DNA of 64,000 nt from assembly GCF_900188415.1 (NCBI RefSeq), contig NZ_FZNV01000004.1:186001-250000 (forward strand), in the 5' to 3' direction. Shown here piece after piece: positions 21,128 through 26,813 of this stretch; position 1 is the first letter of the stretch, and every line of letters starts with the position of its first letter. The translations under genes and the position numbers were made by a program. The stretch is from Maribacter sedimenticola. GTDB taxonomy: Bacteria; Bacteroidota; Bacteroidia; Flavobacteriales; Flavobacteriaceae. Under the pieces are notes generated by a model. The model had not been told where the DNA came from and made no database searches. It was given only the letters and a program-made list of their open reading frames with translations.

Positions 21128-21790
21128 ATGACTAAAGCAGAAAAAATAGCGTTTACAATCTCTACGCTACAAGAGCTTTATCCTGAAATTCCTGTACCCT
21201 TAGACCATAAAGACCCGTATACATTATTGATTGCTGTTCTAATGTCTGCCCAAAGTACAGATGTACGGGTAAATAAAATTACTCCCTTGTTATTTGCAAG
21301 AGCTGACAATCCTTATGATATGGTCAAGCTGAGCGTAGATGAAATAAGGGAAATCATAAAACCTGTAGGTCTGTCCCCCATGAAAGCCAAAGGTATATAT
21401 GGTCTTTCAAAGATATTGATCGAAAAACATGATGGTAAAGTTCCAAAAGATCTACCTTCATTGGAAGCATTGCCCGCCGTGGGCCATAAAACGGCTAGCG
21501 TTGTTATATCACAAGCATTTGGTATTCCTGCTTTTCCCGTAGATACACATATTCATAGATTACTATATAGGTGGGGTTTTACCAATGGTAAAAACGTAGT
21601 ACAAACAGAGAAAGATGCCAAACGTTTGTTTCCCAAGGAAATTTGGAACGATTTACACTTGCAGATCATTTGGTACGGCAGACAATATTCTCCTGCCAGA
21701 GGTTGGGACCTGGAGAAAGATATCATTACCAAGAAAATAGGTAGAAAATCCGTATTAAACGAATATTATAAAAAGAAAAAGACCCGTTAA
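21128..21790 (+). CDS. nth: Endonuclease III without the FeS-cluster cysteines
   Basis: A 220-aa DNA glycosylase/AP lyase. The helix-hairpin-helix LPAVGHKTASVV carries the catalytic lysine of GHK, and the catalytic aspartate follows in FPVDTHIHR, so bifunctional activity on oxidised pyrimidines is expected. The C-terminal region where E. coli Nth has CX6CX2CX5C reads YGRQYSPARGWDLEKDIITKK and has no cysteine at all (the whole protein has none), so the [4Fe-4S] cluster is absent. The frame is intact and the usual active-site residues are kept, so it is a lineage form rather than a damaged gene. The stop codon is inside its own terminator hairpin. Confidence 0.88.
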   Translation: MTKAEKIAFTISTLQELYPEIPVPLDHKDPYTLLIAVLMSAQSTDVRVNKITPLLFARADNPYDMVKLSVDEIREIIKPVGLSPMKAKGIYGLSKILIEKHDGKVPKDLPSLEALPAVGHKTASVVISQAFGIPAFPVDTHIHRLLYRWGFTNGKNVVQTEKDAKRLFPKEIWNDLHLQIIWYGRQYSPARGWDLEKDIITKKIGRKSVLNEYYKKKKTR

Positions 21791-21800
21791 AAACGGGCCT
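21780..21800 (+). terminator. nth terminator overlapping the stop codon
   Basis: CCCGTT (21783-21788) pairs with AACGGG (21792-21797) and the stem extends outward with one mismatch, followed by TTTTATT. The TAA stop of nth lies within the hairpin. Two sigma-module genes converge on it from the other strand. Confidence 0.7.
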
Positions 21801-21804
21801 TTTA

Positions 21805-21948
21805 TTAGTTTAAAAATGTTTCGAAACTTAAATCATTGTGCTCAAATTCGTAAAGCGCCTGAGAATAACTCAACAAGAAATTAATTGTCTTTGGACATAC
21901 TTTAACAAATTCTGCCTGTTCTTGAAAATTAGAGTAAATTTTTTCCAT
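21805..21948 (-). CDS. 47-aa small protein downstream of sigma factor (copy A)
   Basis: A 144-base ORF (ATG at 21948, TAA at 21805) encoding 47 residues, 70 bases downstream of the sigma factor stop on the same strand. It begins MEKIY, has a central PKTINFLLSYSQAL helix-like core and ends FETFLN. An ORF of identical length lies in the same place after the other sigma gene (22990-23133); about 23 of 47 residues are the same by hand count, with both ends and the TIxFLLxYS core kept. This conservation between two copies shows it is translated. The role is unknown; a small regulator or anti-sigma-like partner is a guess. Confidence 0.75.
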   Translation of the reverse strand: MEKIYSNFQEQAEFVKVCPKTINFLLSYSQALYEFEHNDLSFETFLN

Positions 21949-22018
21949 ACTTCCTACGTTGTTACACTAAAATAACGCCGCAAAATTGGAAATATTGTCT
22001 ACCCTATGTTCTTCCCTC

Positions 22019-22600
22019 TTAATTCGTAAGAACAATATTGTTTTTGTCGATGATTTTTCTAAGATTTATTAAAGCATAACGCATTCTTCCCAAGGCCGTA
22101 TTGATACTTACTCCTGTATTTTCCGATATTTCCTTAAAGCTCATATCCTTGTAGATACGCATTAAAAGAACTTCTTTTTGATCATCTGGCAACTCTTCTA
22201 CCAATTGTCTAAGATCTGTATCTATTTGATTTTTGATGAGTTGCTTTTCAGCATTTAACTTATCATCACCTATAACAGAAAAAATATTGAAATCATCACT
22301 ACCTTCAAACATTGGCATTCTCTTATTTCTTCTAAAATGATCAATGATCAAATTATGCGAAATTCTCATTACCCATGGTAAAAATTTACCTTCCTCGCTG
22401 TATTTTCCTTTTTTTAAGGTCTTGATCACCTTTATAAAGGTATCTTGGAATATATCTTCTGTAATATCCCTATCCAATACCTTAGAATAGATAAAACTAG
22501 TAATACGCTGATTGTGTCTGTTGATCAATATTTCAAGGGCACTTTCGTTACCATTGATGTAATCCCTTACTAATTCTGAGTCTTCAATTTGTAGTTTCAT
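22019..22600 (-). CDS. Sigma-70 family (ECF-like) sigma factor, copy A
   Basis: A 193-aa two-domain sigma factor. Region 2 spans ~10-85 (ALEILINRHNQRITSFIYSK ... DIFQDTFIKVIKTL ... FLPWVMRISHNLIIDHFRR), region 4 ~130-185 (ELPDDQKEVLLMRIYKDMSFKEISENTGVSINTALGRMRYA). No anti-sigma factor with a membrane span is adjacent. It aligns without gaps to copy B at 23208-23789; about 142 of 193 residues match by hand count, with the strongest identity in 2.3/2.4 and region 4, so both probably recognise similar promoters. Location between nth and uvrA is the usual flavobacterial place for a single such gene, so this is one product of a tandem duplication. Confidence 0.88.
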   Translation of the reverse strand: MKLQIEDSELVRDYINGNESALEILINRHNQRITSFIYSKVLDRDITEDIFQDTFIKVIKTLKKGKYSEEGKFLPWVMRISHNLIIDHFRRNKRMPMFEGSDDFNIFSVIGDDKLNAEKQLIKNQIDTDLRQLVEELPDDQKEVLLMRIYKDMSFKEISENTGVSINTALGRMRYALINLRKIIDKNNIVLTN

Positions 22601-22939
22601 ACGAGTTACTTTCTTTTAAGGTTTTAGATTGGGAAAATCTAATTGGTTATTTTGGTTTGCTTTTTAATTCTGATATAAAACTATAGAAAAGGGGTGCTGT
22701 TCAAAAAAGTATGTTGTCAAACAGCACTTTTATGATGTGAAACATCGAAAAAGTATATTTCCATACAATAAATAAGAATATGGAAAGTTCAGTGAGAAAT
22801 TTAGATATAGCTTTTAAGGACAGTAGTATATAAAAGAATATTGTTTTGGCCTTACTACAGGACTAATATTAAAATAGGAAAGGAACATTACAATAATGTA
22901 TACGGTAAGGATACCTTATATATAATTGTATAAAAAAGA
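22601..22939. other. Intergenic region between the two sigma modules
   Basis: About 340 bases with no credible gene. It holds one hairpin (GTGCTGTT 22694-22701 with AACAGCAC 22720-22727, 18-base loop). The rest is AT-rich and presumably carries the promoter of sigma copy A; I find no full TAnnTTTG box close to the start at 22600. Confidence 0.5.
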
Positions 22940-22969
22940 AAACCTCTTGAACTTCCGTCCAAGAGGTTT
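22940..22969 (-). terminator. Terminator after sigma module B
   Basis: AAACCTCTTG (22940-22949) pairs with CAAGAGGTTT (22960-22969). On the minus strand the stem is followed by a TTCTTTTTTA run, just downstream of the 47-aa gene at 22990. Confidence 0.8.
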
Positions 22970-22989
22970 ATATTATTTGGTAAGGATGA

Positions 22990-23133
22990 TTAATTTAAAT
23001 TACTTTCAAATTGTAATCCCTTTGTTTCTGTTATATCCAATGACTTAGAATAGGCCAATAAAAATTCAATGGTTTCTGGTCTGGCTTTTACTAAAGTGCA
23101 TTTTTCAGTTTTATCGGTGTAAATTTTCTCCAT
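22990..23133 (-). CDS. 47-aa small protein downstream of sigma factor (copy B)
   Basis: A 144-base ORF, ATG at 23133 and TAA at 22990, 74 bases downstream of sigma copy B. The 47 residues begin MEKIY, contain PETIEFLLAYSKSL and end FESNLN, lining up without gaps with the protein at 21805-21948. The pairing of this gene with each sigma copy, with nearly equal spacing, shows that the unit duplicated was sigma gene plus small gene. A terminator follows within 20 bases. Function unknown. Confidence 0.75.
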   Translation of the reverse strand: MEKIYTDKTEKCTLVKARPETIEFLLAYSKSLDITETKGLQFESNLN

Positions 23134-23207
23134 AGTATTTGTTGTTTAGGTTCAACTAAAGAACGATACATTGATGAAGATAGTAGATCCACTCGACCTG
23201 TAACCAA

Positions 23208-23789
23208 TTAATTCGTTAAAACTATACTATTGGCCTCAACTAACTTTCTTAGGTTGATCAATGCGTAGCGCATTCTTCCTAAAGCCGTATTGATACTGAC
23301 ACCCGTATTGTCCGAAATTTCCTTAAAACTCATATCCTTGTAGATACGCATTTCCAAAACCTCCTGCTGATCCTCCGGGAGTTCTTTGATCATCCTCACC
23401 AAATCAGTATCTATTTGCTCCTTGATCAACTGTCTTTCTGCATCAAGTTTTTCATCACCCAATAAGGAGAAAATATTATAGCTCTCCTTACTATTATACA
23501 TGGGCATTCTGTTATGCTTTCTAAAATGATCAATAATCAGGTTATGTGCAATTCTCATGACCCAGGGCAAAAACTTTCCCTCTTCGTTATAGGCACCTTT
23601 TTTTAAGGTACGGATCACTTTCATAAAGGTATCTTGAAAAATATCCTCGGTCAATTCCCTATCCCCTACTTTTGAATAGATAAAACCGGTTAAACGCGAA
23701 TTATGACGATTTATTAAAGCCTCTATGGCCTTTTCGTCTCCTTGAATATATTTTTTGACTAATTGGGAATCTTCAATCTGTACAACCAT
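23208..23789 (-). CDS. Sigma-70 family (ECF-like) sigma factor, copy B
   Basis: A 193-aa sigma factor with the same architecture as copy A: region 2 with DIFQDTFMKVIRTL and FLPWVMRIAHNLIIDHFRK, region 4 with ELPEDQQEVLEMRIYKDMSFKEISDNTGVSINTALGRMRYA. Differences from copy A cluster in the N-terminal 30 residues, the linker at ~92-125 and the last ten residues; region 2.4 and the region 4 helix-turn-helix are almost the same. It is followed by its own 47-aa gene and a terminator, so it is a separate transcription unit. It faces away from uvrA across a 246-base gap that I find otherwise empty apart from the uvrA promoter box. Confidence 0.88.
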   Translation of the reverse strand: MVVQIEDSQLVKKYIQGDEKAIEALINRHNSRLTGFIYSKVGDRELTEDIFQDTFMKVIRTLKKGAYNEEGKFLPWVMRIAHNLIIDHFRKHNRMPMYNSKESYNIFSLLGDEKLDAERQLIKEQIDTDLVRMIKELPEDQQEVLEMRIYKDMSFKEISDNTGVSINTALGRMRYALINLRKLVEANSIVLTN

Positions 23790-24035: not shown

Positions 24036-26813
24036 ATGCCTACACTTACCGAAGTAAATCCGAAAGAGAACATAATCATTAAGGGAGCAAAACTGCATAA
24101 CCTTAAGAACATAGATGTAGTTATACCTAGAAATAAACTTGTTGTAATTACGGGTTTGTCCGGATCCGGAAAGTCTAGCCTAGCATTCGATACGCTATAT
24201 GCAGAAGGACAAAGAAGGTATGTAGAAAGTTTATCATCTTACGCAAGACAGTTTTTGGGCAAATTGGACAAGCCCAAGGTTGACTATATAAAAGGTATTG
24301 CCCCCGCAATTGCAATAGAACAAAAAGTAAACTCTACCAATCCTAGATCTACTGTAGGTACCACTACGGAAATATATGATTACATTAAATTATTGTTTGC
24401 CAGAATAGGAAAAACCTTTTCTCCCATATCCGGTAGCGAGGTAAAAAAACATACGGTTAGCGACATTGTCAACTTGGTAAAAACTTTTGACGAGCAAACA
24501 AAACTATTATTACTGGCACCCATCCAAATTAGGGAAGACAGGGATACTATTAAATCTCTGGAACTTTTTTCAAAACAAGGATATGCACGTATTAAATATA
24601 ACAATGAAGTCCTGAGAATTGACCAAGCCCCAAAAGATATAGGCAAAAAATTTGATTTGGTCATAGATCGTATCATTACCAAAAACGATGAGGATTTTTA
24701 TAATAGATTGGCCAATGCCATTGATACAGCTTTGTTTGAAGGTAAGGGAGAGTGCGTAATAGAGGAATTGGCTACCGGAAAACAGACATTTTTCAGTAAT
24801 AAGTTTGAACTGGACGGAATGACCTTTCTAGAACCAAATGTACATTTGTTCAGTTTCAACAATCCATATGGTGCCTGTCCAAAATGTGAGGGATATGGAG
24901 ATGTTATTGGTATTGATGAAGATTTGGTCATTCCCAATACGGCACTTTCAGTCTATGAAAATGCAATTTTTCCTTGGCGTGGAGAAAGTATGGGCTTTTA
25001 TAGGGACCAATTGGTCAATTCTGCATATAAATTTGACTTCCCCATTCATAAACCTTGGTATGAACTGACAGAAGAACAAAAAGAATTGGTTTGGAAAGGC
25101 AATAATCATTTCATAGGACTTCATAAGTTCTTTGGTATGCTTGAGGAAAAAAGTTACAAGATTCAAAATAGGGTCATGTTATCAAGATACCGTGGTAAAA
25201 CCAAATGTAATGTTTGTAATGGTAAAAGATTACGTACGGAGACCGATTATGTCAAAGTAGGCGGTGCCAACATCTCATCATTGGTAGGTCGTTCAATAGA
25301 AAAGTTAGGTGAATTTTTCAATACATTGGAGCTAAATGACAACGACGCCAAAGTAGCTTCACGCCTATTGATAGAAATTAGGACCCGTCTTGGTTTTTTA
25401 AGTAAAGTAGGTCTAAACTACCTGACCATAAACCGAAAATCCAACACCCTTTCTGGTGGTGAGAGTCAACGCATAAACCTGGCAACCTCTTTAGGTAGTA
25501 GTTTAGTGGGGTCTATGTATATTTTAGATGAACCAAGTATTGGCCTTCATCCAAAAGACACTGAAAATCTTATAGATGTTTTAATATCACTTAAAAATTT
25601 GGGCAATACGGTTATTGTCGTAGAACATGATGAGGATATTATGAAGGCTGCGGATATGGTCATTGACATTGGTCCTGAGGCAGGCAGCCATGGTGGTAAT
25701 GTTGTGGCGCAGGGAACATTAAAGGAAATATTAAAATCAGACTCACTAACGGCACAGTACCTCAATGGTAGTATGGAAATTAAGGTTCCAAAAGAACGAA
25801 GAACCTCTAAAAATTACATTACTATTAAAGGTGCAAGAGAACATAACCTGAAAAATATTGATGTAACCTTTCCTTTGGATATGTTAACTGTAGTTACGGG
25901 TGTTTCAGGTAGTGGTAAAAGTACCTTGGTAAAAAAGTTACTCTATCCAACAATATTAAAAGAAACTGGTGGCTATGGGGAAAAAGCCGGACAGTTTACT
26001 GATGTGGAAGGAAAATATAAACATATAAAACATGTTGAATTTGTAGACCAAAACCCAATTGGTAGATCTTCCAGGTCAAATCCGGTTACTTATATCAAGG
26101 CATATGATGATATTAGAAATCTTTTTGCAAGCCAAAAGCTTAGTACCATAAGAAACTATCAGGCCAAACACTTCTCATTTAATGTTGATGGTGGTAGGTG
26201 TGAAAAATGCAAGGGGGAAGGCGAAATTACGGTAGAAATGCAATTTATGGCAGATGTGCATTTGGAATGTGAAACCTGTGGAGGCAAACGTTTTAAGAAA
26301 GAGGTATTGGAGGTAACGTTCAATGAAGCCAATATTGATGATATCCTTAATATGACCATAGATGATGCCATTACGTTTTTTGAAAAAGGTTTACAGAATA
26401 AAATCGTTACCAAGCTCAAACCCTTACAGGATGTAGGTTTAGGTTATGTTACTTTAGGACAATCTTCTTCTACTCTATCTGGAGGTGAAGCCCAACGTAT
26501 TAAATTAGCCTCCTTTCTGATTAAGGGTAGCACCAAGGACAAAGCGCTCTTCATTTTTGACGAACCAACTACCGGATTACATTTTCATGATATTAAAAAG
26601 CTTTTGAAATCATTTAATGCGTTGATCAAGAAAGGACATTCCATTGTAGTTATAGAACATAACATTGATTTAATCAAATGCGCCGATTATCTAATTGACC
26701 TTGGTCCAGGCGGCGGGGAAAACGGTGGTCATTTGCTGGCCGAAGGAACTCCTGAAGAAGTCTCTAAAAGTAAAAAATCTTTTACGGCCAATTACTTAAA
26801 AGATAAACTATAA
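24036..26813 (+). CDS. uvrA: UvrA, excinuclease ABC subunit A
   Basis: A 925-aa ABC-type damage-recognition ATPase. First Walker [10 protein letters not shown] at residues 40-48; first signature SGGES in [11 protein letters not shown]; second Walker [10 protein letters not shown]; second signature [12 protein letters not shown]; Walker B motifs in YILDEPS and FIFDEPT. The C-terminal zinc finger is complete (CEKCKGEGE ... CETCGGKRF). The N-terminal zinc finger keeps only its second half ([10 protein letters not shown]): the upstream CxxC of E. coli UvrA is missing, which I believe is usual in Bacteroidetes. It loads UvrB at lesions in nucleotide excision repair. Flavobacteria can have a second uvrA elsewhere. 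Confidence 0.92.

Follow-up and report, generated by a model that had tools for sequence, protein, structure and literature searches.

Why do two sigma factor genes, set in tandem, each carry just beyond the stop codon an open reading frame (ORF) of only 47 codons, and what might so small a protein do there? The question arises in Maribacter sedimenticola, in a 64,000-nucleotide stretch of contig NZ_FZNV01000004.1 (positions 186,001 to 250,000; hereafter the window), where two modules, each with a gene for an extracytoplasmic function (ECF) sigma factor followed by a small ORF, lie on the minus strand. An original prediction from the letters of the window had taken these for a duplicated functional pair. 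Here we describe selection on the small protein, its linkage to the sigma gene across genomes, the common ancestry of short and long forms, the anti-sigma-like predicted fold of the long forms and a conserved promoter-like site; each module probably joins an ECF sigma gene to the gene for a feedback anti-sigma factor that has been reduced to a single helix. The original prediction had noticed neither the anti-sigma ancestry nor the promoter-like site, nor how old the duplication is. The genes concerned are the following:

23208 to 23789, minus strand: ECF sigma factor copy 1, 193 amino acids, with Sigma70_r2 and Sigma70_r4_2 above the Pfam cut-offs and TIGR02937 above its cut-off
22990 to 23133, minus strand: 47-amino-acid protein copy 1, under selection and with matches in other genomes
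22019 to 22600, minus strand: ECF sigma factor copy 2, 193 amino acids, with Sigma70_r2, Sigma70_r4_2 and TIGR02937 above their cut-offs
21805 to 21948, minus strand: 47-amino-acid protein copy 2, under selection and with matches in other genomes

Both sigma copies have regions 2 and 4, with no region-3 model among their Pfam matches, as expected of ECF factors. The duplication is as predicted: the sigma copies align without gaps with 142 of 193 residues identical (143 of 194 including the stop), the 47-residue ORFs do the same with 23 of 47 (24 of 48 including the stop), and the spacing from sigma stop to small-gene start is 74 bases in copy 1 and 70 in copy 2.

The small ORFs are proteins under selection

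Purifying selection acts on the 47-residue ORFs as proteins. In 30 Maribacter loci, with 29 or 30 sequences used for each gene, the median ratio of nonsynonymous to synonymous substitution rates (dN/dS) of the small gene is 0.108 for copy 1 and 0.058 for copy 2, the sigma genes of the same loci having 0.027 and 0.018; a high ratio, which the original prediction had named as a reason to abandon its proposal, was looked for and not found. Third codon positions take 60% (copy 1) and 69% (copy 2) of the changes, the two other frames give ratios of nonsynonymous to synonymous differences (pN/pS) of 1.15 to 1.88, and stops occur in the shifted frames of 29/29 and 30/30 sequences.

The same data bear on whether the conserved stretch is instead an untranslated small RNA or leader. 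The shortness of the ORF, the promoter-like site 5′ of it and the terminator-like hairpin 3′ of it would suit such an RNA, but the codon-position pattern and dN/dS of the small genes, the protein-level homologues found throughout the class and the absence of an Rfam match at gathering score make it highly improbable; the selection pattern and the Rfam result likewise led us to discard a chance ORF. Family databases hold no model for the protein: NCBIfam has no match to either copy at E ≤ 0.1, copy 1 is unmatched in Pfam, and copy 2 has one sub-threshold, 13-residue match to a DnaG domain, with E 0.0066 and 16.9 bits where the cut-off asks for 27, neither copy matching any Pfam family above cut-off.

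The small gene accompanies the sigma gene across genomes

Among 149 genomes searched (own included), the sigma factor was found in 132, and a small-protein match at E ≤ 1 in 97 with the copy 1 query and in 101 with the copy 2 query, the weakest of these matches being chance. Copy 1 has no match in any of the 17 genomes that lack the sigma factor, several of which are reduced or incomplete. Copy 2 has matches at chance level in seven of them (E 0.029 to 0.88); the ones with a listed position, which excludes the matches of G008 and G097, lie in stop-containing frames or inside long frames, and the frame of the best (E 0.029) carries a stop. With a 28-row profile, the 47-residue family was recovered at E ≤ 0.01 in 272/299 Flavobacteriaceae genomes, in 231/249 of those of good quality and in 219/236 genera; 47 of the 299 have two or more matches, in tandem or otherwise.

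The two genes are also physically linked. The small ORF lies 3′ of the sigma gene in 126 of 127 sigma copies at the fetched Flavobacteriales loci (121 by a motif rule and five more by eye; the exception is L104) and in 90/90 sigma copies of the best 80 named loci, and the sigma gene lies upstream in 69/69 loci fetched around small-protein matches, some of them from genomes already counted. The ORF in Flavobacteriaceae, in the set fetched around matches, measures 45–51 residues, with 47 in 79 of 128. The conserved pair that had been proposed thus holds well beyond the window, and linked homologues, whose absence would have undone the proposal, are abundant.

Farther afield, the ORF is present in 31 of 40 distant-family loci (L145–L184), a profile having recovered 21 (E < 1e-3) and the other 10 being long forms recognized by eye; 17 of the 40 were chosen since a match lay near, and of the other 23, mostly from the sigma list, 14 have it. 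Around the 30 loci found with an 88-residue query, a long form of the protein, the sigma gene is within about 90 bases upstream in 17 and farther off in two (167 and 704 bases). In several distant families the small gene directly adjoins the sigma stop or runs over it, and therefore seems to be co-transcribed with the sigma gene there. Linkage to an ECF sigma gene, a usual but not strict mark of class I anti-sigma factors, is thus present here, with exceptions in distant families.

Some distant loci differ from this arrangement. Family f18 keeps an 89-residue long form with no sigma gene within about 1.5 kb (L108, L109, L113, L118, L120, L123 and L126), and three of its sigma loci, L174–L176, have no small ORF 3′ of the sigma gene. 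At L172 (G187), a 507-residue ORF that looks by eye like a transposase starts 136 bases past the sigma stop, at the expected place of the small gene.

Long forms connect the small protein to class I anti-sigma factors

The length of the ORF elsewhere offers a view of its origin: it is 73–90 residues in many distant families and 56–70 in others. We collected 27 long forms, those of L093 and L096 and 25 more from the 30 loci that the 88-residue query found, and they align nearly gap-free. The AlphaFold model of the 88-residue form of L096 has four helices (residues 7–14, 20–32, 34–52 and 59–71; mean predicted local distance difference test score (pLDDT) 77.2), and a Foldseek search with this model against 350,542 PDB chains gave 23 matches at E ≤ 10. 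Anti-sigma chains (RslA, RskA, ChrR, MucA and RsiW), taken by chain letters and lengths to be these and not their sigma partners, make up 16 of the 23, including the first 13; we take RslA and MucA to belong among the class I anti-sigma factors. The NCBIfam models matched by the largest numbers of long forms are anti-sigma models, all below cut-off: 6 of 27 long forms match ‘anti-sigma factor’ (best E 4.7e-4, under the curated cut-off), 3 of 27 a second (0.0033) and 1 of 27 a third (0.022). One match of the 88-residue query (E 1.6e-4) lies in a 266-residue protein with an RskA_C domain (E 7.7e-20).

The profile of the 47-residue family aligns with that of the long forms with an hhalign probability of 96.7 (E 3.9e-10), matching residues 13–47 of the short form to 53–88 of the long, that is, helix 4 and the tail. 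By computation, then, the short and long forms are of common ancestry, and the long form has a predicted anti-sigma-like fold with the three-helix bundle and fourth helix that characterize the class I anti-sigma domain (ASDI). We class the 47-residue form as derived from the class I anti-sigma factors and not as a full member of them: it has lost helices 1–3 and therefore has no full ASDI domain, only the helix 4 segment and the tail being present. In the window, this segment corresponds to:

23041 to 23079, minus strand: predicted helix of copy 1, residues 19–31, equivalent of anti-sigma helix 4 by homology to the long forms, its position transferred from the model of a copy 2 orthologue
21856 to 21894, minus strand: predicted helix of copy 2, residues 19–31, equivalent of anti-sigma helix 4 by hhalign and by an AlphaFold model of an orthologous chain in which sigma factor and small protein are read through

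Not one of the 27 long or 28 short forms contains the zinc motif H-x3-C-x2-C, and a long hydrophobic span is likewise missing from all of them; the highest 19-residue Kyte-Doolittle means of the two window proteins are 0.31 and 0.75. On the sigma tree the short forms are clustered (3 changes, against a shuffled mean of 38.3) and the long forms stand in several places. This clustering fits a loss of helices 1–3, with the root and the number of losses unfixed by the tree; the forms of 56–70 residues seem to be intermediates that keep a remnant of helix 1 together with helix 4.

A conserved promoter-like site precedes the small gene

Each small gene of the window has an ECF-type promoter-like site 5′ of it:

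23160 to 23186, minus strand: promoter-like site of small gene 1, a CTACTA-N15-CGTTCT variant
21974 to 21997, minus strand: promoter-like site of small gene 2, CAATA-N15-CGTT

Across genomes, CAATA-N14..16-CGTT was found 5′ of the small gene in 135 of 212 distinct upstreams, against 0–2 in mononucleotide shuffles, with a spacer of 15 in 130 of the 135; where the gap between the genes is long (L156, L158 and L170), the site remains near the small gene. Each copy has its own form of the site and has conserved it: in Maribacter, all 30 copy 2 upstreams have the strict form (CAATA-N15-CGTT) and all 30 copy 1 upstreams have TACTAT-N14-CGTT. In single-copy Flavobacteriaceae the strict form is present in 85 of 114, and all 114 have CGTT within the last 75 bases; the corresponding counts in other families are 18/37 and 35/37. 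The neighbouring sigma factor may read the site, beside which we cite the psychrophilum motif SM6 (PMC9723704).

By eye, a short inverted repeat seems to stand just past the CGTT box, GTTAT..ATAAC in copy 2 (window 21955–21995, minus strand) and GTTC..GAAC in copy 1 (23140–23170, minus strand), and also at sister loci. Seven loci, all of distant families (L159, L162, L163, L169, L171, L173 and L184), carry CAATA-N15/16-CGTT upstream of the sigma gene as well, 124–160 bases off, which is perhaps a sign of autoregulation.

A probable feedback brake on the sigma factor

How might these parts work together? In many distant families the protein would be a class I anti-sigma domain of four helices, soluble by its looks and free of zinc, which in Flavobacteriaceae would have shrunk to about 47 residues, retaining only helix 4 and a short C-terminal tail. 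The active sigma factor, or its twin, would use the CAATA-N15-CGTT site to transcribe the small gene; the small protein would then pack its helix on sigma regions 2.1/2.2, where the RNA polymerase clamp is bound, and by limiting the sigma factor would act as a feedback brake and not as a membrane sensor. Binding to the neighbouring sigma factor, the inhibitory sign, reading of the site by that sigma factor and the feedback are what we infer. In solved complexes, as described in PMC7406223, helix 4 binds the face of sigma region 2 that meets the polymerase clamp, and helices 1–3 bind region 4. The original prediction had allowed binding to region 2 or region 4; this fits the homology to helix 4, which points to region 2.

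The AlphaFold model of the read-through chain (an orthologue, 62 paired rows; mean pLDDT 70.7) gives the small part one helix (237–249, block mean pLDDT 69 and 81) and two strands. Its Foldseek matches are ECF sigma chains, as expected.

Several results weigh against this explanation. The structural likeness of the long form comes with a predicted template modelling score (pTM) of 0.48 and with Foldseek E-values that are singly weak (0.28 to 6.0 for the first 13), no anti-sigma family is among the Pfam matches of the 27 long forms, and a PDB profile search with the long forms returned a single anti-sigma chain, DdvA, last of seven at E 1.1. No complex of sigma factor and small protein was seen, the read-through chain having a pTM of 0.44, and we left that model unused as evidence of binding; the mutual information signals between the two proteins fall at the variable ends and not in the helix; and a one-helix inhibitor would lose the contacts with sigma region 4. 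No small ORF follows the sigma gene in 9 of the 23 distant-family loci taken mostly from the sigma list, and no sigma gene lies within about 1.5 kb in 11 of the 30 loci found by the 88-residue query, seven of the 11 coming from the one family f18. The strict motif is rare before the sigma genes themselves (7 of 212 upstreams; 0–2 in shuffles) and barely enriched in the genome of M. sedimenticola (62 sites, against 49 for a reversed control), where 26 of 30 examined sites are inside open frames of more than 100 codons; weak enrichment and sites of this kind led us to reject a large regulon drawn from the strict motif.

The loss of the three-helix bundle that covers region 4, with the remainder still under selection, raises the thought that binding by the small protein assists the sigma factor, the helix stabilizing the sigma factor or aiding its loading on polymerase; such a helper, too, would be absent where the sigma factor is absent. 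We consider this unlikely, since in class I factors helix 4 lies over the face of region 2 to which polymerase binds (PMC7406223) and full-length anti-sigma-like forms occupy the same place in other families.

The module was probably duplicated before the genera parted

The original prediction held a single sigma copy to be the usual state, which agrees with what we found: of 54 Flavobacteriaceae genomes of other genera (E ≤ 1e-20), 45 have one sigma match, seven have two or three and two have none. Within the genus, 34 of 35 genomes have two sigma matches, the exception being G008, which is 83% complete and lacks any. A tree of 134 sigma proteins, whose bootstrap was not fully settled, places the copy 1 proteins in a clade of nine rows (support 100/97) separate from copy 2, comprising Maribacter, six of the seven multi-copy genera and G599. 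Copy 2 is the nearer of the two window copies to single-copy orthologues. In seven genomes with both copies, the nearest relative is of the same type in another genus for 14 of 14 small proteins and 11 of 14 sigma proteins. The simplest reading of these sequences is one old duplication of the whole module, common to at least six other genera; it would have occurred before Maribacter and its relatives split, each small gene since retaining its own type of site. In one genome (G061, locus L051) there are three sigma matches, of which copy L051_1940 stands outside the copy 1 clade and does not fit it.

The small proteins had been thought to diverge far more than the sigma factors, and so to have specialized. 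In 426 pairs of single-copy orthologues with sigma identity of 0.70–0.75, small-protein identity has a median of 0.48 (5–95% range 0.37–0.64); the window paralogues, at 0.736 for sigma and 0.489 for the small protein, are ordinary by this standard. In 33 within-genome pairs the medians are 0.751 and 0.468. The window pair lies within the single-copy range, so the argument from excess divergence falls, and we no longer count divergence as a sign of specialization. That each small protein nonetheless came to guard its own sigma factor alone is compatible with a feedback anti-sigma factor, and possible, if doubtful: each is nearest to its own type in another genus, and the promoter-like sites differ with each type kept in all 30 Maribacter loci, but divergence is no greater than among single-copy orthologues, and region 4.2 of the sigma copies differs at only 1 of 33 positions.

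Relation to PorX and SigP

A sigma homologue at E ≤ 1e-35 was found in 256 of 295 sampled Bacteroidia genomes, and PorX (514-residue query, E ≤ 1e-60) in 275. The sigma factor is missing in 11 of the 20 genomes without PorX, against 28 of the 275 with it (odds ratio 10.8, Fisher p 3.9e-6, relatedness uncorrected). This co-occurrence and the equal length of 193 residues give a lead, and no more, that the window sigma factor may be an orthologue of SigP (PGN_0274), an ECF sigma factor of Porphyromonas gingivalis that is likewise 193 residues long (PMC4800418). SigP has one homologue in Flavobacterium johnsoniae, and one study gives anti-sigma candidates downstream of four of the six ECF factors and none for SigP (PMC4800418, PMC7712824 and PMC10951265).

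The association with PorX, and the small gene's own conserved promoter-like site, would also suit a small protein that is well conserved and made under the sigma factor's control but has its target elsewhere, be it PorX, the type IX secretion machinery or another. We rate this lower still than a helper of the sigma factor: the PorX association ignores the relatedness of the genomes, the helix is homologous to that of the anti-sigma-like long forms, and the gene's overlap with the sigma stop, or abutment on it, in several distant families suggests co-transcription with the sigma gene. A reduced anti-sigma factor remains our preferred explanation. Its broadest version is a feedback loop across much of the Bacteroidia in which a near-universal, SigP-orthologous sigma factor transcribes its own single-helix inhibitor, doubled and with two promoter types in the Maribacter group; this we put forward tentatively, as a conjecture that may well fail. 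As a separate observation, family f58 has PorX and lacks the sigma factor.

Comparison with known anti-sigma systems

The module resembles the class I anti-sigma factors RseA, RskA, ChrR and RsiW in that the small gene lies just 3′ of an ECF sigma gene, the 88-residue form has a four-helix layout with such chains as its best PDB matches, and the 47-residue form retains the helix 4 segment; it differs in that none of the 28 short and 27 long forms has the zinc motif or a long hydrophobic span, and the 47-residue form is without helices 1–3. With the class II factor CnrY, which has two helices, it shares the principle of a short anti-sigma factor working without a three-helix bundle (PMC7406223), and by our own reading the forms of 56–70 residues look like CnrY. 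Class II, however, takes two helices, one for each sigma domain, and the 47-residue part has one predicted helix and two strands, with another ancestry. The EcfO-Reo system of Bacteroides and Phocaeicola also pairs an ECF sigma factor with an anti-sigma gene, but Reo is described in PMC13114119 as spanning all compartments, from cytoplasm to cell surface; the 47-residue proteins, with the low hydropathy maxima given above, have no membrane span, let alone one through both membranes, and EcfO-Reo was rejected as a match. Our literature search met no paper on the 47-residue protein, which is no proof that none exists.

If the small protein is inhibitory, it reveals how small a part of an anti-sigma factor is enough, it offers a natural series of reduction from four helices through intermediate forms to one, and it supplies a testable regulator for a sigma factor widespread in Bacteroidia; should the loop also be real, no smaller anti-sigma factor than the Flavobacteriaceae form may be known. 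PMC7406223 puts the share of Bacteroidetes ECF sigma factors with a linked class I anti-sigma factor at about 6%, a figure that may be too low, because a partner of 47 residues has no Pfam or NCBIfam model and is perhaps missed by gene callers.

Surroundings of the modules

Both modules lie between uvrA (24036–26813) and nth (21128–21790), each in the order sigma gene, short gap, 47-residue ORF and terminator-like hairpin:

22940 to 22969, minus strand: intrinsic terminator-like hairpin 3′ of module 1
21777 to 21803, minus strand: intrinsic terminator-like hairpin 3′ of module 2

The scan that found these returned three hairpins, against a mean of 1.4 in shuffles. The setting is shared by relatives: the sigma gene has bcp, nth and uvrA beside it, all three within flanks of just 2 kb, in 64 of the 80 named loci, which are the best 80 matches listed and all near the query.

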